Assembly (NCBI GenBank): GCA_027604005.1
Contig: JADGJT010000325.1
Coordinates: forward strand, 338 to 20,406
Direction of reading: 5' to 3'
Source of the DNA: Dinochytrium kinnereticum
Taxonomy: Eukaryota; Chytridiomycota; Chytridiomycetes; Chytridiales; Chytridiaceae
Length of the DNA: 20,069 nt
A program made the position numbers and the translations under genes. Within the stretch, counting starts at the first letter, position 1; the number at the start of each line of letters is the position of its first letter. A model generated the notes under the pieces. It was not told where the DNA came from. It was given only the letters and a program-made list of their open reading frames with translations, and made no database searches. Of the stretch, positions 2,275 to 18,505 are shown one piece after another.

Positions 2275-3589
2275 ATGTCCTCTCTGGTCGTCCATTACGC
2301 TGCGCTGGGAGTGATCGGGGTGTCGGTGGTGGGGTCTACTTTAGTCATCTTGTCGACCATCTACCGGGGCAAATACAAGACCATTGGTGACAAGCTTTCC
2401 ATGGTTGGAGTTGTCTCTGATGCATGGATGTTTTAGGTGAAAGGTTCCCGCTCTACGTGTCTGTGATTGATCTTCTTTGGAGTTGCTCTCATTCTGTGGA
2501 CCATGCGCTATTTATTTTGGAGGGGGGGTACGCAGAAGATAGCACTGTATGTCGGGCTTTAGGGGCTACCTTGAATGTAAGTGGTTTTGTTGAAAGGATG
2601 TTGCTGTTTGTTTGGTTTTTGTTTGGTTTTGGCATTGGATCGGTTTAGCTACATCATAACCAATCAAACCTTTTTCCCCTGCTTGCTTCAGTTCTTTATC
2701 ATCTCTCAGATCATGCTGCTGAATATCATGGCTGCGTCCATGTTCCTCACAGTTTACAGAGGATGGGCACTCTCCTACGGCAAAGGAGACTGGATCCTCT
2801 TTGTCTTAACCTTTGGTGCCCCAGTCATCCACACTTCAATTGGATGTAAGTAGGGGTGTTCCTCTCTTTCAATCGTGAATGTAGCATCTTCTTAAACACA
2901 TTACAACAACCCATTGGTTTTGTACAGGGGTGGTTGGAACGTTTGGTCCGGACGCCTATTGGTGCTTTTTGAATCCGAACGTATCAGCAGGGCGTCTTTT
3001 TCTGGCAATCGGACTTGCTGTATCGGTGCTCTGCATTGCGCTGCCAGCTGTTTGGTAAGCAAAGAAACAAAACAAAACAAAAATGTTAACCAACTCATCC
3101 CACCCCTTCCTTCCCTTTCTATTTGATATAACAGCTATTACCTCATCTACCGTAAAATTGCAGAGACAAACCGCGATCTTGCTGTTATCAACTGCAACGC
3201 TTGGAATAGTTTGGATGAAGGGATGAGGAAGCAGATTTGCTCGACTCCTGGTAACGCCTTTTCCGATGAAAACGGCCGAGCTACCTCTGCGAATACCTCT
3301 GACGCTGTTACGGTGAAAACGAGGCTGATCATTGAAAAACTTTTACGTATGTGGAGCGCCATCACAGCATAATCTCCTTGTACTAAACATATCCTCAGAG
3401 TATGAACTTGTCCTCATCATCACCTTTTCGTCCCTGATTGTGTACTCGGCGATGGTGACTTTGCGAAAACCGATGGACGTCTGGGTGGCAGTTCTGGTTG
3501 TGGTCTGTTTTAATTCTTGTGGGTGGCTTAATGCTGCCGTGTTCTTATATCAGGATTGGAGAAAGAGGGGAGAGGGATTGATGGTTTGA
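2275..3589 (+). CDS. cAMP-receptor-like (class E) seven-transmembrane receptor, first tandem copy
   Basis: Probable G-protein-coupled receptor of the plasma membrane, 311 residues in six exons: 2275-2386, 2437-2576, 2692-2845, 2928-3054, 3135-3346 and 3399-3589. All introns are GT-AG and all phases join. Approximate membrane segments are residues 6-30, 42-66, 77-106, 117-136, 158-183, 250-270 and 275-300, with a long polar third cytoplasmic loop (184-248). Cys76 at the start of TM3 and Cys148 in the second outer loop (motif YWCFLNPN) are placed to form the usual receptor disulfide. Loop and TM patterns (RGWALSYGKGDW, TM7 FNSCGWLNA) resemble the Dictyostelium cAMP-receptor family (Dicty_CAR) and fungal relatives; that family link is recalled from pattern, and a Git3/GPR1-type assignment is the alternative. 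The ligand is unknown. The start is the first in-frame ATG and matches the start of the second copy at 4271. An out-of-frame ATG lies upstream at 2193. Confidence 0.82.
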
Positions 3590-4270
3590 GGAGGTGGGGA
3601 GGTGAGGGATGATGCCGTTGTTTTGTTGCTTGATTTTTTGGATTTCTTGTTTCTTTTCTTTTGTTGGGACCGATGAGACCTCATTATTATTATTTTTGGA
3701 GGCTGCCTGTCACGCGTCACTTGATGCTTATTATAACCATAATGATTGATTAAATCCTTAAATCAACTTACAGTCGTCTTTTTTAAAAAGTACCGTTTCG
3801 AATTTATGATGCAAAAAGAGTTCACAGTGAATCTTCAATAAAGAAGATATTCAATCTTGGGCATATCTCCAAAAACGCGGGTGCCAGTCACAGTTGCCTC
3901 TTCTCAGCCAGCCGATACCAATACTATGCTCTGCACAACAAGATATCTGTTTGCATCGTCTTAAAATTCCATTGGGATTTCTTGGAATTTGCTTGCTGGG
4001 TTTTTCAGCCAATCAGTATTATTTTGGAAGAAGAAAAATCCACAAAAAAGCAGCCGCAGGTAATTTGGGGTTTGAAAGATGTGTGTATGACAATGGACGC
4101 ATTCTGCAGGCACGACTGGAAAACCCCTTTAAACCTTCAAACCGCTTAAGCATTGCGCTTCTGCAACGACATAATCCGTTTGTTAACCACCAACACACCG
4201 CCACCTCCATTCCTTTCAGTTAACCACCAATACACCACCTCCTCCTCTCCACGGTCGCTGATGAACGGAG
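3590..4270. other. intergenic region between the tandem receptors, with a poly(A) signal and a short direct repeat
   Basis: A consensus AATAAA lies at 3837-3842, about 250 bases after the first receptor's stop, and could serve as its polyadenylation signal. Near the right end a 27-base CA/CC-rich unit occurs twice in direct orientation (4182-4208 and 4219-4245) with a few mismatches, 10 bases apart. It lies directly before the second receptor's start, in its probable 5' leader. An open frame at 3894-4223 lacks an ATG at its beginning and shows no family resemblance, so I do not call it. Confidence 0.5.
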
Positions 4271-5619
4271 ATGGCGCTAGCTGTCCATTACATCGCTCTT
4301 ACCGTGATAGGAGTCTCCATCGTGGGCTCTGCTTCGGTCATCGTGTCAACTGTTTACAGGGCAAAGTACAAGACTATTGGTGATGAGAGCCTCCCTTCTG
4401 AGCACATCTGCCTCCTTTTTTGTCATTATTTCTACAGTGCTTCTGGTTTTTTTCTGATATCTGGGTGAAACAGGCGAGCGGTTCCCACTGTACCTCTCAA
4501 CCATTGACCTGCTTTGGAGCTGCTCTCACTCTGTTGATCACGTCTTTTTCATCATGAATGGTGGCCACGCTGTGGGGTGTGTCGGTATCTCGGGGCTACT
4601 TTGAACGTAAATATGGTTTTGCATCTTCAGCTGTCATCGTGTTGCGACCGTGTTTGGACTGTTCCGTGGTTTCTCTTTAGCTAATTTGCATTGATCACCC
4701 ACACAGCTTTTCATCATTGCGCAAATGGTGTTGTTGAACATCATGGCCGCGTCCATGTTTCTCACTGTTTACAGGGGATGGGCTCTTTCCTATGGGAAAG
4801 GAGACTGGATACTGTTCATTACTACTTTTGGAATTCCAATCGTTCACACTGCAGTGGCGTGTAAGTCCGCTTTTGCGACGTGTGCTGCGCAGCTTAACCT
4901 TCTCGTATTTGTTTCCAGGGCTGGTTGGAGCGTTTGGTCCGGATGCTTACTGGTGTTTCTTAAACCCGAACGTCGAGGCTGGTCGTATATTCTTCCTGCT
5001 GGGGATGTCGTGCTCGCTGGTTTGCATTGCGCTGCCGGCTGTTTGGTATTAAGCCAAAGTCAGCCGTGTCCAATCTAATCTTTTCGAACAAAAAAAACAA
5101 AAACAACAGCTATTACCTCATCTACCACAAGATCGCTGAGGTAACTCGAAGCCTTGAGGTTCTCAACGAACATATCTCTGAATCATCCACACATGATGAC
5201 GGGAGAAGGTCTTTGTACCCTCCTCGTCGGAACGCGTCAACCCTCTCTCATGATAAGCGCCAACCCACCCCTTCTTCAGCCCTTGGGATTAACAACGGCG
5301 GCCATGTGACCACCAAGACAAGGATAATGATTGAGAAGCTCCTCCGTGAGTTGGCTCAACCCCATCACCAACTCTAGTTTGCTAACCTCGATTCAACCGA
5401 GCAGAATACGAGCTCGTTCTCATCATAACGTTTTCATCCCTGATTGTTTATGCCGCGATGATTAACACCAGGAGACCGATGGAGGAGTGGGTGGCAATCT
5501 TGGTGGTGGTTTGCTTCAATTCGTGTGGATGGCTTAATGCTGTCGTGTTCTTTGTGCAGGATTGGAGAAAGAGAAAGGATTTGAGAGAATTGGCAAGAAG
5601 CCACGGGGGTTCTCAGTAG
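4271..5619 (+). CDS. cAMP-receptor-like seven-transmembrane receptor, second tandem copy, with an apparent frameshift in exon 2
   Basis: Paralogue of the gene at 2275-3589 with the same six-exon plan: 4271-4379, 4474-4606, 4707-4860, 4919-5045, 5110-5345 and 5405-5619. Introns fall at the same positions and phases, all GT-AG. TM segments, the outer-loop YWCFLNPN motif and the TM7 FNSCGWLNA motif are conserved. The third cytoplasmic loop is different in sequence, longer and rich in Ser, Pro and Arg. Exon 2 is 133 nt, but the frame needs one base more or two fewer. Read straight, it meets a TGA at 4602-4604. The conserved TM3 start (CRYLGATLN, with the disulfide Cys) is present in a shifted frame from 4580. 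The break lies between about 4569 and 4580, next to a GGGG run at 4574-4577. All other exons are intact, so a sequence or assembly error or a very recent lesion fits better than an old pseudogene. The start is ATG 4271; another ATG at 4261 is out of frame. Confidence 0.75.
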
Positions 5620-6788
5620 GAGAAGTGTGGGCTCCTTAGCGAATTTGGCTCTTTTTGTTGTTGTTGTTGTGTGTGGGTGTTTCTGAACAAGTACTTTGGG
5701 CTGAGATTCTTTTTATTTTCTCTGGTATATTACTATTACGACTGTTTAACATTTACAAATATTCTCCTTTCTAAAGTTTTCGTGAATGTGGCGGACTCGG
5801 ATTTTTTGCTGAGACGAATCTCGCCTTTGGGAAGTTGGCCCAGACGAAAGATCATGCGCCAAACTCTGTTGCGACCTTTCTCTATTTGAAAATAAGGGTT
5901 GACTCGACACAAATTCATATAATTATTTATACATGTTAATCATTTAAATATTTACTAAAGCCTCCTGCAACGCATCGGAATGGCGGTTGAGTGGGGCCCA
6001 GCAAGAGATTCAGAATGCGGAAAGCTTTCAGGATATGCCAGAAGTGCGTCAGTATGTTTTGGGAGAGAGATGTTCGTGTGACGATTGCTTTTTCTCTCTG
6101 TTTCGATTGTGAGAAAAACCATTTGAGATATCATTGGACACAGTGAGGTCCTGGGAGGGCGAGCCAACTTATGGAGGCTATGCGAGAAGCCAAAGCAAAG
6201 ATGTCAAAGAGAATGGGATGAGAAGAACGAACGAAGGCAATCGTTCGTACGCTGAGCAACTAGCAGGTGAGGTTGGCAGCATCATGCGATGTAAGTTGGG
6301 TAGAATATTGCTGCCAAAGTGAATACTTTGAAGGTCAAGTAAATATCTAAAAGATATCACTCGGCAAGGCCTGACAAGAAGTTCGGTTGCAGAGGCGCTG
6401 GAGCAGGTGTTCTGGAAAGCTTCATGGTCAAGCATCTTCCTCGGAATATCTGCAAAATGAACTTATCCCATCCAATGAGGGAGCTGCACTGGGCAATGTG
6501 CTGACATTTCAGACGGGAACTTCCTTCACTCTTGAATCTTTCGCAACCTGCTGCTTGGTGACCGATTTTTCGTAATCCGAGATTTTTATCAATTGTCAGC
6601 ACTATAAAAAGGCAACCTTCAACTCCATCCTCCATCATTGTCGACGACAAGGCAGTTAAACATATCCCTTCCAGCGACGCTCACCCCCATTCATCCCGTC
6701 TGCACCCGCGAGCGAGGCGCTCATCCTCGGTGCTGAGAGTAGCAGTACGGAATCATCTTTTCGGCTGTTACCCCTCAGCACTTCGAGC
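5620..6788. other. intergenic region upstream of the F-box/ankyrin gene
   Basis: This holds the 3' flank of the second receptor, including a (TTG)n microsatellite at about 5650-5670, then about 700 bases of mixed sequence with only short overlapping frames on both strands. No frame between 5940 and 6600 has protein-like character over its length or recognisable motifs. The right part carries the promoter elements described separately. Confidence 0.45.
6472..6610 (+). promoter_or_regulatory. putative core promoter: CCAAT box and TATA box
   Basis: A CCAAT pentamer at 6472-6476 is followed about 130 bases later by TATAAAAA at 6603-6610. Transcription would begin about 25-35 bases further on, giving a leader of roughly 150 bases before the ATG at 6789. 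Spacing and orientation suit the F-box/ankyrin gene. This is inferred from motif and position only. Confidence 0.45.
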
Positions 6789-8270
6789 ATGTCAGGGTCC
6801 CGGCCATCTGCGACTGTTGCCTCATGCAGGGCCACCATTGCGCTGACCGACCTCCCCGTTGAGCTGATCCGGAGTATCGCGATTCTACTACACCCGCATG
6901 ATGTCCTCAAACTTCGGTTTCTCTCCCGATCTGTTCTCCATCTCTATGTGTTCCAGGACGCGGCTTTTGCATCGGAGAACCTCCACAATCTCATCCTCCC
7001 CTCGCCCTCCCATTCTCTTAACAAGAATTCCAGATCGCCTTCCCCAACTGCCACATCTTCTTCCACTCTTTCCTCTACATCGTCATCCCCTGCATCGCCC
7101 GATTCCGTCGACGAATTGTCATTGTCAGTAGGAGGACCTGAAGTCTCACTCGTCCCAACCGTCGCGCTGGATTGGGGCCGACTTGGGATCCACTATATGA
7201 CGGCCATGATCAGATTGCGGAACCTCACTTCTTCAACCTTTTCCTCCTTTATGGCTGTCCCGGTTGACGGGGTGTGGACCATACCTTCTCCGCTCTTACC
7301 AAGTCTTGCACATGGGAGGAGGGCTGCTCTGACGCACCAGATGACCGAGATGTTTCATCGAGCAACGGGTCGGATAGGAGAGGCCATGATTGCCATCCTG
7401 GATTCTCAGACTCCTTCCCCGGCGTTTGATGGTTCAGAAGCTGCTTTCAACACATGCGAGTCCGTGCCACCGACGACCATAATCTCTGCGGGGTTCGACC
7501 TTGAAGCGGACGACTTTTTTGCCATTCGATGGGCTGTCGCCATAGACAATGTTCATCTCGTTTCCACGTTGTTAGATAGAGTGGGGCCATTTGTCTTTTC
7601 TCCGAGCTCGAGCTGGTCACCCCTCCTTCAGCATCTCTTTCGACATGCCGTCAAGGCTGGCAGCCCCAAGGTCGTCCGCTTCCTTCTCTTCACTGGTCGT
7701 GTAGATCCCACAGCCGACGACGACCTTGCCATTCGTGATGCCTGCGAGAGAGGCTACCCCGAAGTTGTCCTCATCCTTCTCAAATTCTCGAACCCCCGCT
7801 ACCCGAAGGTTGACCCGGTGTCTCGAAGCAACTACGGCATGCGGATGGCCAGTCAAAATGGCCATGCGGAGGTCGTTAGAATATTGCTTGGAACTGGTCG
7901 GGTCCCACCTTGCGCACTTCACTGGCCAGCATCAAGGGGCCATGCTGAGATTGTTGGGATGCTAGTGGATACTGGGAGGATTGATCCAAGCAACGCTGTT
8001 GGGGGTGATGGGTCCGCGCTTGTTGAGGCTGCTGAAAATGGATTTGCTGAGGTTGTCGACTTGATTTTGGCTTCTGGAGTTGCTGATGGGGCGGCCGTTA
8101 ATGCGGCTTTGCTGTCTGCGGCTCTAAATGGACACTTGGAGGTTTGCAAGCTTTTGGTTTTTACACGGAAAGTCACATCTGCTGTTATGCCTGAACTCTC
8201 CTCTTGCCTTAAGAGGAATAAGGAGTTTGCTGACCAACTTATGCCGGTACTGATGGGTCAGGTGGTATGA
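6789..8270 (+). CDS. F-box-like and ankyrin-repeat protein
   Basis: Single-exon gene of 493 residues with no intron signal needed, unlike the receptor genes around it. Residues 17-65 (LTDLPVELIRSIAILLHPHD and following) have the F-box pattern: a Leu-Pro start, then two hydrophobic helices. F-boxes bind Skp1 in SCF ubiquitin ligases. Residues 71-105 are a Ser/Pro/Thr-rich linker. From about residue 245 to 460 there are six or seven diverged ankyrin units, visible as recurring NGHAEVVRILL, RGHAEIVGMLV, NGFAEVVDLIL and NGHLEVCKLLV segments; these normally form a protein-binding surface. The likely role is a substrate adaptor of a cytoplasmic or nuclear ubiquitin ligase; the substrate is unknown. 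The middle part (residues 120-240) is not recognisable. Large families with this domain order are, as I recall, common in chytrid genomes. A TATA box and CCAAT box lie upstream. Confidence 0.85.
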   Translation: MSGSRPSATVASCRATIALTDLPVELIRSIAILLHPHDVLKLRFLSRSVLHLYVFQDAAFASENLHNLILPSPSHSLNKNSRSPSPTATSSSTLSSTSSSPASPDSVDELSLSVGGPEVSLVPTVALDWGRLGIHYMTAMIRLRNLTSSTFSSFMAVPVDGVWTIPSPLLPSLAHGRRAALTHQMTEMFHRATGRIGEAMIAILDSQTPSPAFDGSEAAFNTCESVPPTTIISAGFDLEADDFFAIRWAVAIDNVHLVSTLLDRVGPFVFSPSSSWSPLLQHLFRHAVKAGSPKVVRFLLFTGRVDPTADDDLAIRDACERGYPEVVLILLKFSNPRYPKVDPVSRSNYGMRMASQNGHAEVVRILLGTGRVPPCALHWPASRGHAEIVGMLVDTGRIDPSNAVGGDGSALVEAAENGFAEVVDLILASGVADGAAVNAALLSAALNGHLEVCKLLVFTRKVTSAVMPELSSCLKRNKEFADQLMPVLMGQVV

Positions 8271-8986: not shown

Positions 8987-11900
8987 TTAAGGCTTAGTAG
9001 GATTTGAGGCAAGAGCCGACGACATCACTGCCTTAGCGCCTGTCACACTGTTGGTTCTCCCTGCCGTGTTGTTAGTTCGGTTCGCTGACATCTTGGCTGC
9101 ACTCGCAGGCTTGATTGTTTGCTGTGTTTGTATTTTGTTTGTTAGTTTGGTAATTTTGACAGTGTTTTTTTGGATAAATAAGGATGTACTCTGGATTATT
9201 CAGATTATTCAGCCCCTCACCTTGCAGTACTTGCAATGCATAATACTTTCCTCTCCTTCTACTGAAGACTCTCCGTGGTTGCTAGAGGTGAAGCTGACGT
9301 TATCAGAGTCTTTCGATAGGACCTAGGGTAAAGATGTTTAGATGGGGAACTAGGAGAATGACAAAGTCAAGCAATTTATCATACGCCATATATCTTAGTA
9401 AAGAAGTTGGTGAAAATCACTGTGTAGAGGGTCAGGGAAACCAATAACGAATTTATGAGGTGAAGAGCAGAAGGACTAAATACGAAACCAGTTAATACAT
9501 AAAATATTCTAGAATGCCTTACTCTTTGATAAACAAGCCAAGTGATACTAGAATAATCAGCGTAAGAGTTACAACGTAGATGGAAAGGTTGATTTGGCCA
9601 GTCTCGTTATACTTTGAAGTCACGTTTCGTGTTTTGAAACTAATGTAAAGACCGAAAATCAAGACAAGGGTAACGGGGGCCAAGAGAATCCAAAGCCATT
9701 GTCCCATTCCCTTGCTGACGCATATCGGCCAATCATCCCCATCGATGGTAATAACGGAAGTCTATTGAAAAACATCGAGTCATCAATACCGAGCCTTATG
9801 AAAGGATAAGAACGTAAATACTGTACCTCATACGGCGAAATTTGGTTGAAGGCAATCAAGACTGCAAAGTTGACGCAAACGAGAGCAGTCACCATGCCGA
9901 GAAGAACAGGATCTTGTATTAGGAAGGACTTTGATGCTGACTTTGACCTCAAGAAAATATAATAGATACGCCCTAAATAACATGATTTTAGATTTGGTTT
10001 GCAAAAGGAAGAAACAAGAAGAGAGAAAAGAAGGAAAAGGATATGGCAATAGGCGGTTTAGTTAAGACAATGCATGGCCAAACTTACAGTTCTTTACAAC
10101 AATCGCACTGAATAGCAGCATGCAACCAGTACTGAAAAGCCAGAGTGCAGATGAACAGTACTTAAACTCGATAGCAGAGAGGGTGTAGAGAATGATTCCT
10201 ATGAAACTAATGATGGCTCCGACGGCATAGATTGTCAAGAAAAGGGGTGAAGCCGACTTGAAGGCGGCATTTTGTCTCAATGCAATTGTGCAGCCAATAG
10301 CGCACAGACCGAGGAAGATACCAATCGCAGAAACCGCATAACCTAAGGCAAGCACTCCTTGACTAGGATATTTTGGAACCTTAGGTGGCCTTTCTGGATC
10401 AACAAAAAGGATCTGTCCGTGAAATAAGATGATTAGTTTGGGAATAAACTGCAGCGGGATACCATGGTTCAATTTTTGGGTAAGGGGCTGACAGGACTTA
10501 ATGGATAGCTTTACCTTGTGACTGCTAACGATTCCTTTTGTTGGGTGAGACCCACCGTAAACCATAACGACCGTGTCATTCATTGGAACGCAGATCGACA
10601 ATGCCGTTGAACGGAACGAGCAAGCTCGCTGGAAATCCGACTGAACGAAGGATGAAGCCGTAAGACCCTGCACTGGGTAAGGAAGTGCCAATCCGGCCTC
10701 CTCTGACCACGAATCTAATGCCAAGTTGTAGATAAACGCCCTTGACTGAGTCTGCTTGTTAAAGGTTCCACCCACAACAAGCACACGCCGGCTGTCAATC
10801 GCAGCCATTGCTAAGCGTGAAAGCCCAATTGGTTTGACACCAGAAGGGGATAAGGCCGTCCATTTCTGAGTACTAGTTTCAAACTTCCAGAGCTTCGAAC
10901 TGTCGGTTATGCCATCTGTTCCACCATATAACACGATAGTGGTGCCGTTAACGGCAGCCATGGAAGCGCTGTAACGTGGCTCAGGGAAGTCAATACCAAT
11001 AGCACCTGAGGGTTGGATTCTCGTCCACACATTTGAGTTGAGGTTCAAACTCCAGAAATCGCTTTGAATATTGAATCGGTCATCCTGACCTTACATTATC
11101 ATGTTTAGAATAAAGCAATGTTAGGTATGGAAAGCATGAAGTGTTTTTTTTATCAGATGAGTTTAGCTTACCTCCCCATACATACATCTCTTGATCTCCG
11201 ACAAGAGCGGTGGAATGTCTCAGTCGCCTACCCGGACCTCCACCTGTTGTAGTGAGAGCGCTCCACTGGCTAGTCGCGATCGAATACTTAAACACCTCGC
11301 CGCTCACCGTATTGTCTCTAGTAGACCCTCCAAAAATCACAAGCTCTCTGGCATCTCGGCGGTATACTGCACCGTGGTTTTGAAGACCAGGGGGTTGGAA
11401 TGATCCCGTACTGTTGACAAGGTTCCAGGTTACAGCATCATAATCATACCTCCACAGATCATTACTAATGTTTCCTGTTGGAGTCTGCCCGCCAAAAATG
11501 AAAAAACTGTTGTCGAATGTGAAGCTTTGTGTGTGGCCCTACGGGTCAACAGTATGATATCAACTTAGTTAGTCGAAAGCAAGGACTTCTAAATTAAAAA
11601 ATAAACTTGCCTGTAATCCGTCCGGGGAACGCCCAAAGCTGGGAAGGTCTGCCCAGGTGCCGTTAGACTTGCTCTTGATTCCCTGAATGTAGCCTTTCGC
11701 AACCGCGGTAAGGCCTCCTCCTTGAATTCTAGTCTGCACTATAGCCAATAATGAACCAAGATCGGTCTTTCGCACTGTCGCGCATCCAGAGTTGCCAGCA
11801 TCCACATCCTGAAAAATGACGGACCTATCCAGTTGGGAGCACGCCAGAGGACTGGAGCACCCTGATAGGCCAACACCACCAACAGCCGAATCCAAGATCT

Positions 11901-13326
11901 TGTTGCCGGAGAAGAATTGGTCGGTATGACTTTCGTTCAGAAGAATCAAAGTGGCTTTATCGAGGTTCTTCAGAGCGGACGCGAAGATGAAGTTTGAGGC
12001 TGGATCGCTCTTGTTCGCGAACGTTGTACGAGATTCATCATTGTCCACTCCGATGACCCACCGACCGGCCCTCGCGACATTGCGGATGGTTTGGGAGCCG
12101 AGTCCACCGGCAGCAGCGAAGAATCTGTTGTTTTTATCTTAATTGGTTGGCTGCTCTTTTGAATGTAGGTGTCTTATGACAACAATAGACAAAAACTCAC
12201 ACTGAGGTGCCGCAATGGAAGGCATTGATTCGCATGTGGTAAAGTTAAAGATTAGAGAAACCAGCTGTGTTTCTTTGTTTTTGCTCTTCACACATACCGT
12301 CTACATTTTTGGACAGGAAGTCTGTATGGGGACAGAATCAGCATCGAGAAGGCGTAAGTGATGATTGATTACTAACCTATCGAGTTCATTTCAGCGATTG
12401 TCGAGTTGCTCCAAGTCGGATCAAAGTTGAAGGTTCCATACGTGGTGACAGCAGGGTTGATGTACTGAACGCCGCTTAAAAAGCCTGGATCGTGTTTGTA
12501 AAGGGATTTCGTATAAATATATAATTTCAAAAGAAATGGAACGGAGAATGCCAGAGAAACCAACCGTAAACATATCTTCGCACTGGAGGAATGGGAAGAT
12601 TTCCCATGACTCCGACGGTACTAGTATTTGTAAGCGCGCCAGCAAGGACGCCAGCTAAGAATCCAGCCTCGTCTTCAGCAAAAGTTATCCCCTAGTAACG
12701 TAAGTTAGTACACTTCAACCACCTTTAAGAGTCGTCAGCGGGAAAGGAGACGCACTTGACAGTTTGGTGGATACGTGTTGTCGATACTAACTGCCAGATA
12801 TTTAGTTGGACACCATTACCGTTCGGGTTTGTACTTACCGTCCAGAATGGAAAATCTCATGTTTGGTAATTGTCTCGCGGTATTGTTGAGAACGGAGGTG
12901 AATGGAAAACCAACAAATATCGTGTGGAATATGGTAGGGTCTATTTCATCGAAATGTGAATTCGCAAGATTAATATCCTGCCAGCAAAGAAAAAAGTTCT
13001 CACCGGATTGAAGGTTGGAGAGCACCTGAGACGGATCGAGCCCTGTCGGGGGTACGTAAAAGTTCCTGCATTGGTAGCCTGGAGTCCCTCTCGAAAATTG
13101 ATCGCATCCCTTTATCACCTCAGCTGAAAATCCACCAGCGGTTGCAGCGGCTGTTGTGAAGATATGAAGGCATGAAGTTAATTTAAAACCATATTTAATG
13201 AATGTAGGCCTCACCAAGGTTAGGAGGGGAAACATATATCGCGATAGTTCTTTGTGCATGAGCCAAAGAGATCGCGGTTGAAAGCCATATCAGGGCCAGT
13301 ACGGCGCAAGCGACACGATGCAGCAT
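8987..13326 (-). CDS. BMP - Kelch - class C seven-transmembrane receptor, first copy (17 exons)
   Basis: Probable cell-surface receptor of 1,049 residues. Exons, 5' to 3': 13326-13215, 13150-13004, 12940-12839, 12790-12756, 12691-12565, 12484-12377, 12321-12298, 12201 (one base), 12124-11611, 11538-11172, 11089-10515, 10412-10088, 9972-9827, 9761-9523, 9475-9385, 9322-9221, 9121-8987. Residues 1-25 are a signal peptide. About 26-370 form a BMP/PnrA-like ligand-binding domain (GGFSAEVIKGCDQF, FAEDEAGFLAGVLAG, FFAAAGGLGSQ, WVIGVDNDES, ASALKNLDKAT); bacterial members bind purine nucleosides. Residues 391-704 hold about six Kelch repeats (FIFGG, VIFGG, YVWGG, VLYGG, VVGG, MVYGG). Residues 722-970 are a class C, GABA-B-like 7TM domain: FKSASPLFL before TM2, Cys790 at TM3 and Cys875 in the second outer loop for the disulfide, VVKNWRIYYIF after TM3, FKTRNV after TM5. 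The tail (971-1049) has a CKYCK motif and is Ser/Asn/Lys-rich. Intron 9 has a GC donor; the rest are GT-AG. The frame is intact throughout. Ligand and G-protein coupling are unknown. Confidence 0.88.
12201..12201 (-). other. single-nucleotide exon (exon 8) of the first BMP-Kelch-7TM gene
   Basis: On the minus strand this T lies between an acceptor ending CCTCAG and a donor GTGAGT. Exon 7 ends in phase 1 (one G left over) and exon 9 starts with the last base of a codon, so one base is needed. G, T and A make a Val codon, giving NVDVFFAAAGG, the expected hydrophobic strand of a BMP domain. Intron lengths on either side are 96 nt and 76 nt. The same arrangement occurs in the paralogue. Confidence 0.75.
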
Positions 13327-14315
13327 GCTTCAGCGTGGAATGATGACTTTTTTCTTTGCGCTTTCCTTTTTTTAAATCACTACTTCAATCTGGTTTATGA
13401 GAGTATATCTTTCAATACATATAATGATCATTATTGGTACTCAAGGTTGGCCAGGAAATCACTTGTAAATCTTTCGATAACCTAGCTATGTACTTGAACT
13501 TTGTTTCTTTACAGTTTCGTTGGACATGATTCTCAGTTCCACGTTAACCCACTATGGGCAAAACGAGATTCGATCTTTTCCATTAACTCACACCAGGACC
13601 TTTTATGATGAAGTATCAATTGTATGATCACAATGGCTGCATGGTGATCTTAAATTGCGCTCAGTCTTAAGAACCCAATTCCACATCCACAATGGGTCTG
13701 AACCGATTGCTGACGCTGGGTGTGCTACAAAACAGAGATAGAATAATGAGAGTGGTCAAATGCTTTCTTCTTCTTTTTCCGTGATGAACGCGATTCATGG
13801 AAGATGGAATTTACACCAAGGGTTGGCACAGGTGAAAGGCTGCTGAATACAATGATTGACTGCTCGCTTTTTGCTTTTCTGGGCCTCCTAAACAAGGTTC
13901 TGCGGATTGTCTTAAGGTTAAACAATGACAGTCATTAAGAAACTCAAAACCATCTTTGACTCTGCATCCAACACACTCTGGAATTGGAGACCTGTAGCAA
14001 AGAATCCGTTTGGAACGCTTGACGAAATCCGCTTGTGCGGGGCGACCAAATTTCGGTTTGTTCAATTTTGGCAAGGCACCCATTGAACATCAATGGTATA
14101 ACCTCTGCTCCAAAGCGATAGTAATGTGAGCAAAGGCTGCTTCAGCAGATAGTTGGAGTTACGTAAATCAGACGTTTTCTCTTTCTACAGATCACAGATC
14201 GGACGTGGGAAACGGCAATAATGATTTTATATTCACAACATCGAACAACAAACATGGTTTATAGTGTAGAAAAGAAGAAATGAAGAAAAAGAGATTTTAC
14301 AGTGAATAAAACGAT
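13327..14315. other. intergenic region between the tandem class C receptors
   Basis: This holds the 3' flank of the copy at 14316-18505 and the promoter of the copy at 8987-13326. A minus-strand frame at 14083-13811 has a Lys/Arg-rich first third but no recognised motif, and I see no matching exon around it. The 100 bases upstream of the ATG at 13326 contain an A-rich run (minus strand), a CCAAT box (13437-13433, minus strand) and a perfect 14-base palindrome at 13421-13434. Confidence 0.45.
13421..13434. promoter_or_regulatory. perfect 14-base palindrome upstream of a receptor gene
   Basis: ATAATGATCATTAT equals its own reverse complement. It sits about 95 bases upstream of the minus-strand start at 13326 and overlaps a CCAAT box read on the minus strand by two bases. 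It could be the site of a dimeric transcription factor, but A+T-rich palindromes of this length also arise by chance. Confidence 0.3.
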
Positions 14316-17300
14316 TTAAGCCTTGACAGACGAAGATGCAACTGCACCGCCAGTGGTGCTTTGGTTTCTTACCGCTGTAGCCCTGTTCATTGACGACTTT
14401 GCAGCGCCTGCCGGCTTGATGGATTGCTATTTGTTTGTGTTTATACGGTTAAATGCAAGAAGAAGTTGAGAGCCATCGATACACATACTTTGCAGAGTTT
14501 GCAGGCAATAAAGCTTTCCTCGCCGTCGACGGAAGATTCGCCATGACTGGAGCTGAAATCGATGGTATCACTCTCCTTCGACAAGATCTGAAGTAATGTT
14601 TAGAAACGTTGATCCCGAGTCGATCTCACTCACAGTATAGATCTTGGTGAAGAAGTTTGTAAAAATGACAGTGTAAAGTGTAAGGCAGACCAATAGCGAG
14701 TTGATGAGGTGTAGGGCCGATGGGCTTTTTGGAAAAGAAAGGTTAGATACGGATATAGCCACCATCACTTACTCCTTAATAAAGAGACTAAGGGGAACCA
14801 GAATGACAAGGGTCAGAGTGACAACATAGATAGACAAGTTGATCTGTCCAGTCTCATTGTACTTCGAAGTTACATTGCGGGTTTTGAAGCTAATGTAAAG
14901 ACCGAAGATAAGGACACCTGTGACTGGGGCCAAGAGAATCCAGAGCCATTTCCCGATATCCTTGCTAACACAGATAGGCCAGTCGTCTCCATCGATTGTA
15001 ATAATTGATGTCTGGTTTAAGCATTAACGGTTAGGCCGAATAAACATAAACTGATCGCAGCGCCTGACTAGAAACTAAGGGGACCGTTGATGACAAACCT
15101 CATAAGGAGAAACTTGGTTGAAGGCGATCAAGACTCCAAAGTTGATGCAAACGAGGAATCCAACCATTGCCATCATGACAGGATCCTGGATTAGGAAGGA
15201 CTTCTTCGCCGAGTGAGAGCGCAAGAAAATGAAGTAAATTCGCCCTATTAAAGCAAGGTTAGTGAGCTGACAATAAGAGAGTTCCTTGAATGTGAGAGAG
15301 GGGATGTAGCATGTAAACTATATGGTTAGAGAAAGAGACTTACAGTTCTTAACAACAATAGCACTGAATAGAAGCATGCAACCAGTACTGAATACCCAGA
15401 GTGCAGATGAGCAGTACTTGAAGTCAACTGCGGAAATGGTATAAAGGATAATCCCGATAAAGCTGATGATGGAGCCCACAGCATAGATAATCAAGAAGAG
15501 AGGGGATGCCGACTTAAAGGAGGCATTTTGTCGTAAGGCGACTGTTGCTCCAATGGCTCCAAGAGCAAAGCCGATTCCGATACCAGCGACAGCATACCCC
15601 AATGCAAGAATTCCCTGGCCCGGGTACTTTGGGACCTTTGGAGGGCGTTCTGGGTCGACAAAGAGGATCTAGTAGCAAAGTAGAGTCAGTTGATTTCAGA
15701 GGAAGATAATGCGAAAAAAGTTTCAAGGATCGCCATACTGCACAGTGGAAGCTTACCTTCTGATTCCCGATAATACCTTTAGTGGGGTGAGTACCACCGT
15801 AGATCATAACCACCGTGTCATTCATAGGCACACATACGGACAACCCAGTAGCTCTAAAGGAGCAGGCATTCGCGAAATTCGACTGAACAAATGCAGAAGC
15901 CGTCAAACCTTGAACAGGGTAAGGAAGACCCATATTAGCCTCCTCCGACCACAAATCCAGAGCCACATTGTAGATGAAGCTTCGAGACTGGGTTTGCTTG
16001 TTGAAAGTTCCTCCGATGAACAAAACACGACGGCTGTCGATCTCGACCGCGGCGGCTCTTGAGAGACCAATCGGCTTCACTCCACCAGGGGACAACGCAG
16101 TCCATTTTGATAGAGACACGTCAAACTTCCAGAGCTTCGAGCCGTCGCTTACTCCGTCATTGCCGCCGTAAAGAAGAATGGTACCATTGACTGCCACCAT
16201 GGATGCACTGTGCCGGGCTTCTGGGAAGTCCACACCTGATGCTCCAGAGGTTTGAATTTTTGTCCACTGGTTTGTTTCGAGGTCCAGGTACCAAAAATCA
16301 TTTTGAAGGTTAAATCGGTCGTCTTGTCCTGGTATCAAATCAGAAATTAAACCATTTTTTCCTGAAAGAGGGCAGTAAAAGTGATCCTTACCTCCCCAAA
16401 CATACATATTTCGGTCTCCGATCAAAGCTACAGAGTGTCGAAGACGCTTTCCAGGACCACCGCCAGTGGTGGTAACAGAGGTCCATTGATTTGTCGCAAG
16501 AGAGTATTTGAATACATCGCCGTTGACCATGTTATCTCTAGCAGAGCCTCCCGAAATCACCAGCTCCTGTGCACTGCGGCGGTAGACTGCACCATGGTTT
16601 TGCACACCAGGAGGCTGGAAGGAGCCAGTCGCGTTAACAAGGTTCCAAGTGATGGCATCGTAGTCGTATCGCCAGAGATCGCTGCTAATATTTCCGGTTG
16701 GGGTCTGTCCACCAAAAATCAAGAAGGTATTATCCTGAAGGAAGTTTTGGCTATGACCCTATTGTTGGCTGTTAGATTCTATTAATCGGAATCATTTATC
16801 AGCTCACCTGCAATCCATCGGGGGAACGACCAAAGCTAGGAAGGTCTGCCCAGGTGCCGTTTGACTTGCTCTTGATTCCCTGAATGTAGCCGTTTGCAAC
16901 GGTTGTGAGACCTCCTCCTTGAATTCGGGTCTGAACAATTGACAAAAGAGAGCCAAGATCCGTCTTTCGCACAGTCGCGCACCCAGAGTTGCTGGCATCC
17001 ACGTCTTGGAAGATGACTGACCTTTCCAATTGGGAGCACGCCAAACCGCTTGAGCAGCGAGATAAACCCACGCCACCCACGGTCGAGTCCAAGATTTTGT
17101 TTCCAGGGAAGAATTGACCTGTGTGACTCTCGTTCAAGAGGATGACGGTGGCTTTGTCCAAATTCTTTAGGGCAGATGCGAAGATGAAGTTTGAGGCGGG
17201 GTCACTTTTGTTGGCAAACGTCGTGAGTGATTCATCATTGTCCACTCCAATAACCCATCGCCCCGTGGAAGCAATGTTTCTGATGGTCTGAGAGCCGAGA

Positions 17301-18505
17301 CCGCCGGCAGCAGCGAAGAGTCTGCACAAAGTGTGGTTAGGTTGGATATTCGTGGTGCTGGCTTCTCATGACTCGAACAAAAATAACTGTACTCACACTA
17401 GGTAGAATAAATATCAAGTCCGTTTCCCAATGTGGAATAGATGTTTTTTGATTTAGCTCAAAAGAATCGAAAAGGTAAACTAATAGCCGTTCACTCACCG
17501 TCAACGTTCTTGGAGAGAAAATCTGAATATCATCGTAAATGATGGATTTACGTAAATCTTAAAACAATCAATAATAACCAACCTCTCGTGTTCATTTCGG
17601 CAATAGTCGAGTTGCTCCAAATCGGATCAAAATTAAAGGTTCCGTACGTGGTCACGGCGGGGTTGATGTACTGAACTCCGCTTAAGAAGCCTAGTCAAGA
17701 GCCGTCCCAATTAGTTATTCGTTCCAGTGACATTTGGGAATAAGGATGGACGTTGGCTAGCTTACCGTAGACGTATCTTCTCACTGGAGGAATGGGTAGA
17801 TTTCCCATGACCCCAACGATACTGGTGTTCGTAAGAGCACCAGCAAGAACACCTGCAAGGAAACCTGCCTCATCCTCAGCAAATGTGATTCCCTATAAAT
17901 CAAGATGTAAGAAATATTGAAGTCAAGGATATGTGGGTACCTGGCAATTCGGGGGGTACGTGCTATCAATGCCGACTGTGCCCAGATCCAGTTAGAACTG
18001 TAAGATCAAACGAGATGCTCACCGTCAAGAATAGAGAATCTCATGCTTGGAAACTCCCTCGCCGTGGCATTGAAGACGTCAGCAAACACGAAACCAACGA
18101 AGATGGAATGGAAGATGTTTGAGTCTGGCAACTTAGAGTCAGTCATGGACCGCCATTTGGCCAAAAGGAATGTCAGATTACTTGCCTGATTTCAGGTTGG
18201 CCACAATCTCACTCGGAACGACATTTCCAGAGGGAAGGTAAAAGTTCTTGCAGACATAGCCTGACGTGGCTTTCGTGAACTGGTCGCATCCCTTGATAAC
18301 TTCAGCCGAGAATCCACCAGCAATGGAGGTGGCTGACATTACAAGCGACATCCGATGAGCACATTTTGAATGGAGCTGAGGCCATTGACTCACCGAGATC
18401 CGGCGTGTTCAGATAGAGCGCAATCGTTTTCTGAGCAGTGGCCGCCAGAGGCAACGTTGCCAGTAAACCTATGGCCAGCGTCGCCAACGAGATATGGTGC
18501 CGCAT
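14316..18505 (-). CDS. BMP - Kelch - class C seven-transmembrane receptor, second copy (17 exons)
   Basis: Tandem paralogue of the gene at 8987-13326, 1,039 residues. Exons, 5' to 3': 18505-18394, 18332-18186, 18124-18023, 17975-17941, 17892-17766, 17690-17583, 17522-17499, 17397 (one base), 17321-16808, 16758-16392, 16328-15757, 15668-15344, 15244-15099, 15011-14773, 14724-14634, 14587-14489, 14426-14316. Exons 1-10 and 12-15 have exactly the same lengths as in the other copy. Exon 11 is one codon shorter, exon 16 one codon shorter and exon 17 eight codons shorter. Domain order and motifs are the same: signal peptide 1-25, BMP domain to about 370 (FAEDEAGFLAGVLAG, LFAAAGGLGSQ, WVIGVDNDES), Kelch repeats 391-703, class C 7TM about 721-969, and a tail with CKLCK. 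Intron 2 uses a GC donor (18185-18184), where the other copy uses GT. The frame is intact. The high coding similarity with diverged introns indicates a duplication that is not very recent. Ligand unknown. Confidence 0.88.
17397..17397 (-). other. single-nucleotide exon (exon 8) of the second BMP-Kelch-7TM gene
   Basis: On the minus strand this T sits between an acceptor ending TTCTACCTAG and a donor GTGAGT. Exon 7 (24 nt) ends in phase 1 and exon 9 begins with one base that completes a codon, so one base must come from here. The result is NVDVLFAAAGG. The flanking introns are 101 nt and 75 nt. Intron sequence is otherwise unlike the paralogue, yet acceptor, T and donor are kept. Confidence 0.75.

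Follow-up and report, generated by a model that had tools for sequence, protein, structure and literature searches.

A probable single-nucleotide coding exon in two tandem receptor genes of the chytrid Dinochytrium kinnereticum

Exons of a single base have been described from plants and from a few fungi. In plants, APC11 has a one-nucleotide exon for which sequential splicing by intron definition was proposed (Guo and Liu 2015, PMC4674806), and conserved microexons of one nucleotide (nt) are described for VPS55 and APC11, of which copies lacking them also exist (PMC8831610). In fungi, host transcripts of small nucleolar RNAs (snoRNAs) in the Candida parapsilosis group were reported in 2016 to have single-base exons (PMC5033589), and the CYP621A P450 genes of Fusarium contain a one-base exon covered by RNA reads; Nelson and Syed (2026, PMC12940212) present it as the first such case among fungal genes. 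A single-base-pair exon in placozoan mitochondrial cox1 is named in the title of another report (PMC5436844), and a functional microexon of 20 nt has been described in Trichoderma (PMC11121469). No single-nucleotide exon of a chytrid was found in the open-access literature searched. Here, we analysed a window of 20,069 nt from the zoospore-forming fungus Dinochytrium kinnereticum (Chytridiales; contig C325, positions 338-20406, of a 22.4 Mb assembly), in which two neighbouring receptor genes, A and B, each contain with high probability a constitutive coding exon of one nucleotide, T, with an ordinary short intron on either side. Because single-base exons are already known in plants and a few other fungi, the two genes represent a well-supported new example and not a new phenomenon. 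The initial annotation, which was made from the sequence of this window, had cited plant APC11 and stated that no fungal case was known. The plant precedent holds, with VPS55 as a second conserved plant case (PMC8831610), but the statement about fungi is contradicted by the reports on Fusarium CYP621A (PMC12940212) and on the Candida-group snoRNA hosts (PMC5033589).

Genes A and B are tandem neighbours, both on the minus strand. Gene A has 17 exons including the one-base exon, and gene B follows the same exon plan with identical lengths of exons 1 to 9 (112, 147, 102, 35, 127, 108, 24, 1, and 514 nt). The product of gene A matches the Pfam families Bmp, Kelch, and 7tm_3 above the Pfam cut-offs, and the same three are found in a third family member, paralogue C. 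For gene B, Bmp was scanned in the hand-built model, while Kelch and 7tm_3 are the precomputed domains of the NCBI model P0002 (HDU67_006007), which was matched to gene B by eye. The best protein match of gene A is P0001 (HDU67_006008), with 99% identity over 92% of the query. The features needed in the following are:

14316..18505, minus strand: gene A, BMP-Kelch-7TM receptor; hand-built model, open to the stop codon; NCBI HDU67_006008 (P0001)
17499..17522, minus strand: gene A exon 7, length 24 nt, phase-1 end, last bases GACG
17398..17498, minus strand: gene A intron 7, 101 nt, GTGAGT...CTAG
17397..17397, minus strand: gene A exon 8 (predicted), single nucleotide T, middle of the Val codon G/T/A
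17322..17396, minus strand: gene A intron 8, 75 nt, GTGAGT...GCAG, with the branch-point-like word CTAAC
16808..17321, minus strand: gene A exon 9, length 514 nt, first bases A CTC TTC GCT
8987..13326, minus strand: gene B, BMP-Kelch-7TM receptor; hand-built model, open to the stop codon; NCBI HDU67_006007 (P0002)
12298..12321, minus strand: gene B exon 7, length 24 nt, phase-1 end, last bases GACG
12202..12297, minus strand: gene B intron 7, 96 nt, GTATGT...TCAG
12201..12201, minus strand: gene B exon 8 (predicted), single nucleotide T, middle of the Val codon G/T/A
12125..12200, minus strand: gene B intron 8, 76 nt, GTGAGT...ACAG, with a weak branch-point-like word
11611..12124, minus strand: gene B exon 9, length 514 nt, first bases A TTC TTC GCT

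In both genes, exon 7 has a phase-1 end and exon 9 begins with a single leftover base, so that a direct join of the two is out of frame. The join needs one added base (or 1+3k) to keep the frame, and without it a stop follows 152 nt past the junction in A as well as in B. The stretches of 177 nt (A) and 173 nt (B) between the two exons contain exactly one AG-N-GT each, and in both cases this is AG-T-GTGAGT. With T included, both proteins are open from end to end, comprising 1039 (A) and 1049 (B) residues, and read NVDV(L/F)FAAAGG at the junction. We infer that T is part of the mature messenger RNA (mRNA) of both genes. The phases, the motif with T at 12201 and 17397, and the frame restored by it had all been proposed in the initial annotation; the coordinates proved exact, and the Bmp domain score is highest when T is included.

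The expected length of the protein at this site is provided by paralogue C, which is located on contig C321 (L005) and has the site inside one unbroken exon. It encodes FLARNADVIFGAGGGIG, including NADVIFGAGGG, and serves as a length marker; the hand-built model is identical to NCBI P0059, letter for letter. Genes A and B align to it without gaps at the site, as FLSKNVDVLFAAAGGLG and FLSKNVDVFFAAAGGLG, with the split codon G/T/A opposite GTG, and the Val encoded by this codon faces Val or Ile in the aligned uninterrupted relatives. Two non-chytrid relatives are uninterrupted at the site (DVVFGAGG in P0008, DIIFGVGG in P0012), and three PDB alignments, inspected out of 14 matched sequences, are ungapped there, for example DVIFHAAGG in 7x0r. 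Apart from the fusion of exon 7 to exon 9, paralogue C also has exon 4 fused to exon 5.

According to the published description of Fusarium CYP621A (PMC12940212), both systems concern fungal coding genes with an exon that ends in phase 1 and lacks one base, flanking AG and GT, the base as codon middle in a conserved motif, a joint intron that is long compared to the short typical introns, an unbroken relative as length marker, and database models that are wrong at the site. They differ in the base, which is G within AGGGT in CYP621A and T within AGTGTGAGT in A and B, and in that CYP621A is an ascomycete P450 with RNA reads from two species, while here a chytrid receptor is read from the genome alone. 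With APC11 (PMC4674806) and VPS55 (PMC8831610) the locus shares the single base between AG and GT and the coexistence of copies with and without the exon, and with VPS55 also the conserved GTRAGT donor. Unlike A and B, these are plant genes whose exons are reported to be shown by complementary DNA (cDNA), in the case of APC11 also by reporter constructs. The Candida-group hosts are likewise fungal and have one base between two introns, but the transcripts are described as non-protein-coding with some introns nested or recursive (PMC5033589). The stwintrons of filamentous fungi, as described (PMC6616335), resemble the locus in having adjoining short introns removed consecutively by intron definition. 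In stwintrons, however, the inner intron breaks up a splice signal of the outer one and must be removed first, and there is no exon base, whereas A and B retain a base and either order of removal should work. The site is also not a zero-length recursive splice site (ratchet point), as T separates AG from GTGAGT and the direct join is out of frame.

The strength of the sites was judged with site matrices and a branch-point count built from the 37 other introns of A, B, and paralogue C, which are 46-115 nt long with a median of 64 nt. Taken as a single intron the stretch measures 177 nt in A and 173 nt in B, taken as two it splits into 101+75 nt and 96+76 nt, respectively. The donor GTGAGT following T is mid-field in both genes (16/37 and 22/37 ordinary donors score no higher), and the acceptor preceding T is ordinary in A (14/37 ordinary acceptors no higher). 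We enumerated alternative models with one or two GT/GC-AG introns of at least 35 nt, a first donor at most 60 nt past exon 7, and acceptors at most 90 nt into exon 9. Seven single-intron options in A and 12 in B are in frame and free of stops, and none of them keeps the protein length. With two introns there are 119 (A) and 122 (B) options, of which 5 and 6 keep the length. Among these length-preserving models the T exon has the best site total, 24.9 compared to 8.1 for the next in A and 22.2 compared to 5.7 in B, corresponding to leads of 16.8 and 16.5 bits. Among the enumerated models, correct length and credible sites are thus combined only in the T exon. The Pfam Bmp scores are likewise highest for the T exon: in A the T isoform reaches 105.2, the junction chosen by NCBI 93.2, and another alternative 88.2, and in B the T isoform reaches 99.2 and the alternatives 94.6, 88.8 (the NCBI junction), and 87.3.

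When each stretch was shuffled 20,000 times with dinucleotides preserved, 19.7% (A) and 22.2% (B) of the shuffles contained an AG-N-GT whose distance from either end was 46 nt or more. Demanding site scores at least as high as the weaker observed ones, thresholds that were chosen post hoc after the sites had been seen, reduces this share to 0.19% (A) and 0.095% (B). With T as the base it is 0.02% and 0.04%, and with a spacing to exon 9 that deviates from the observed one by at most 2 nt it is 0/20,000 in each gene.

The two genes are strongly diverged at silent sites, with dS values (synonymous divergence) of 1.98 for exons 1-7 and 1.48 for exons 8-9. Read in the frame with T, exons 8-9 have a dN (nonsynonymous divergence) of 0.059 against the dS of 1.48, which is the pattern of purifying selection; in the frame without T, dS is 0.16 and dN 0.264. 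The intron DNA had initially been described as dissimilar, and alignments of the 14 other intron pairs of A and B, with z values from -0.8 to 2.1, are indeed not clearly beyond shuffles; the 177/173-nt pair has a z of 2.3. Within these otherwise diverged introns AGTGTGAGT is present in both stretches at equal distance from exon 9. With intron ends trimmed, two words stand out as the longest ones common at matching 3' distance, namely AGTGTGAGT in this stretch and, in intron 14, TCTAAACAT, which is itself branch-point-like; all others have at most 7 bases. Because A and B are duplicates, the shared site counts as one ancestral structure that persisted, and not as two independent events. The weight of the comparison is therefore this apparent persistence in otherwise diverged DNA.

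In a tree of 12 rows with midpoint root, A, B, Phlyctochytrium bullatum HDU96_009972, and P. planicorne HDU97_002291 form one clade (support 99/100). The NCBI models of all four retrieved clade members, from three species, fail at the junction, in this order by reading NVDGELF, skipping exon 7 with KNNRFF, and reading NID-AAGG and NAK-RGIGSS. The four-residue gap in P. bullatum would be expected of a model that lacks one base and takes as acceptor the AG of a GCA-G codon pair, located 11 nt inside exon 9. None of the five other chytrid relatives with a BMP domain fails (paralogue C/P0059, P0004, P0005, P0006, and P0060 read through), although P0005 and P0006 have extra residues at the intron just upstream. 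This count of four versus five leaves out P0061 (Chytridium lagenaria), whose model has no BMP domain, and the non-chytrids P0008 and P0012. P0059, P0060, and P0061 were added by a protein search with the 7TM part. Because the protein search that matched P0001 and P0002 scored the best 8000 candidates by shared words, it may have missed orthologues of greater distance. With the peptide of exon 9 alone as query, none of 146 candidates matched at E 0.001.

Several points weigh against a one-base exon. The exon is predicted here from genomic sequence. In B the acceptor preceding T is weak (0.6 bits, 2/37 ordinary acceptors no higher in a leave-one-out comparison), and intron 8 has no YTNAY word, which is present in 34/37 ordinary introns. 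The site matrices derive from 37 introns of A, B, and paralogue C themselves. One length-changing model of A has a slightly higher site total (25.8 compared to 24.9); it keeps T but takes an acceptor that lies 42 nt downstream of the start of exon 9, and loses 14 residues. The NCBI models of A, B, and some relatives contain errors elsewhere too, so that their failure at the junction is only a soft signal, and the Phlyctochytrium orthologues were compared as protein models only (2/2 clade members fail at the junction).

It is unlikely that the stretch is removed as one long intron whose donor lies 4 nt downstream, which would add one residue. The protein would then read NVDGELF in A, with an intron of 173 nt, and NVDGIFF in B, with an intron of 169 nt. 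Such an intron is in frame and stop-free in both genes and is the NCBI model of A (P0001, NVDGELF), and in B its donor has 4.5 bits (8/37 ordinary donors no higher), the best single-intron option there (10.5). In A, however, the donor scores 0.1 (2/37 ordinary donors no higher), and the intron lengths would be about 4 standard deviations above the log-mean of the 37 introns with their maximum of 115 nt. The extra residue, Glu in A, would be placed inside a hydrophobic strand that is ungapped in the relatives, and the Bmp score drops by 12.0 bits in A and 4.6 bits in B. In addition, the conserved AGTGTGAGT would be left unexplained, and NCBI chose otherwise for B.

It is hard to believe that one long intron uses another acceptor, or that exon 7 is skipped, with several residues gained or lost as in NVDASTTNIQPNHTLCRLF (A) and NVDDKNNRFF or SIDKNNRFF (B). 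Although these options are in frame and stop-free, the 137-nt option in A even has the top single-intron site total (11.9), and the skipping of exon 7 is the NCBI model P0002 (NSIDKNNRFF), there is no solution common to A and B. The insertions and deletions would fall within the conserved strand, and the Bmp scores are 88.2 (A) and 87.3 or 88.8 (B) compared to 105.2 and 99.2 with T. All single-intron readings, including those of the NCBI kinds, were rejected based on site scores, intron length, and domain fit. Equally improbable is a spliceosomal twin intron (stwintron), in which the donor or acceptor of the second intron is split by the first and no exon base is in between. Stwintrons are reported from fungi (PMC6616335), and G/TGTGAG could formally make a [D1,2] donor, but in a nested enumeration of split donors and split acceptors, which yielded 4 distinct in-frame proteins for A and 6 for B, the protein length was changed in every case, and both kinds were rejected for this reason. 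Finally, that A and B are pseudogenes or assembly errors in which the base is simply absent from the coding sequence has as its sole support the out-of-frame join of exons 7 and 9 and is just as improbable, as the copies are otherwise open over more than 1000 codons with low dN downstream and carry the same splice-like site despite dS values of 1.48-1.98, so that the argument already made from the two copies against a sequence error stands.

Genes A and B thus very probably contain a one-nucleotide exon between two short introns that are removed one after the other. The initial annotation had offered a tiny exon or stepwise removal of one long intron. The sequence tests support the exon and the in-frame Val codon that it completes, but stepwise removal is not an alternative product: it yields the same mRNA as a one-nucleotide exon and is hence a mechanism, and the most plausible one. 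The two introns would be recognised by intron definition and removed consecutively; the two sites are unlikely to be bound at once because the AG at the end of intron 7 doubles as positions -3/-2 of the donor of intron 8. Removing intron 7 first would leave CGT/GTGAGT, removing intron 8 first would leave AG/TA, and either order would result in the same mRNA. Skipping T would cause a frameshift with a stop 152 nt downstream. The structure should be older than the duplication of A and B and probably also older than the split of Dinochytrium and Phlyctochytrium. A clear similarity between introns 7 and 8 within a gene, as a trace of intron duplication, was not found (z of 1.9 in A and -2.2 in B). 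If the two splice sites of T cannot be occupied together, it could be imagined that the exon is both an old fixture of this chytrid receptor clade, predating the split, and an on/off switch, with splicing kinetics choosing between receptor mRNA and an early-stop frameshifted transcript. We consider this combined proposal doubtful, and a switch role via frameshift and decay is speculation. If the one-base exon is real, single-nucleotide coding exons extend to the Chytridiomycota, and the genome would offer a natural test set, as it has the exon in two diverged copies and lacks it in a third paralogue. It would be a further sign that exon size may have no lower bound where introns are short. For annotation, the failure of all four retrieved public models of the receptor clade at this junction is a warning.

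Further tiny exons of the two genes are exon 4 with 35 nt (A 17941-17975, B 12756-12790) and exon 7 with its 24 nt (17499-17522, 12298-12321). The models P0001 and P0002 also miss the first exons, and in P0001 exon 4 is replaced. Intron 2 of gene A (18125-18185) is a GC-AG intron with donor GCAAGT and has a GT donor opposite in B, while the intron following the 514-nt exon of gene B (11539-11610) is GC-AG with donor GCAAGT and has a GT donor opposite in A. The donor type has therefore switched between the duplicates. Concerning the domains, BMP and Kelch occur together with kinase and cyclase domains in P0008 (EukProt Nk52) and with 7tm_3 in P0012 (Plasmodiophora brassicae), which suggests an old domain pairing outside fungi. 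The window contains a second tandem pair on the plus strand (about 2276-3590 and 4271-5620), whose genes contain introns and share peptides such as NIMAASMFLTVYRGWALSYGKGDWILF. Judged from their sequences they look like membrane proteins; three short exon pieces of this pair gave no match against Pfam. A single-exon gene on the plus strand (6789-8270) encodes 493 residues with ankyrin repeats (Pfam Ank_2).

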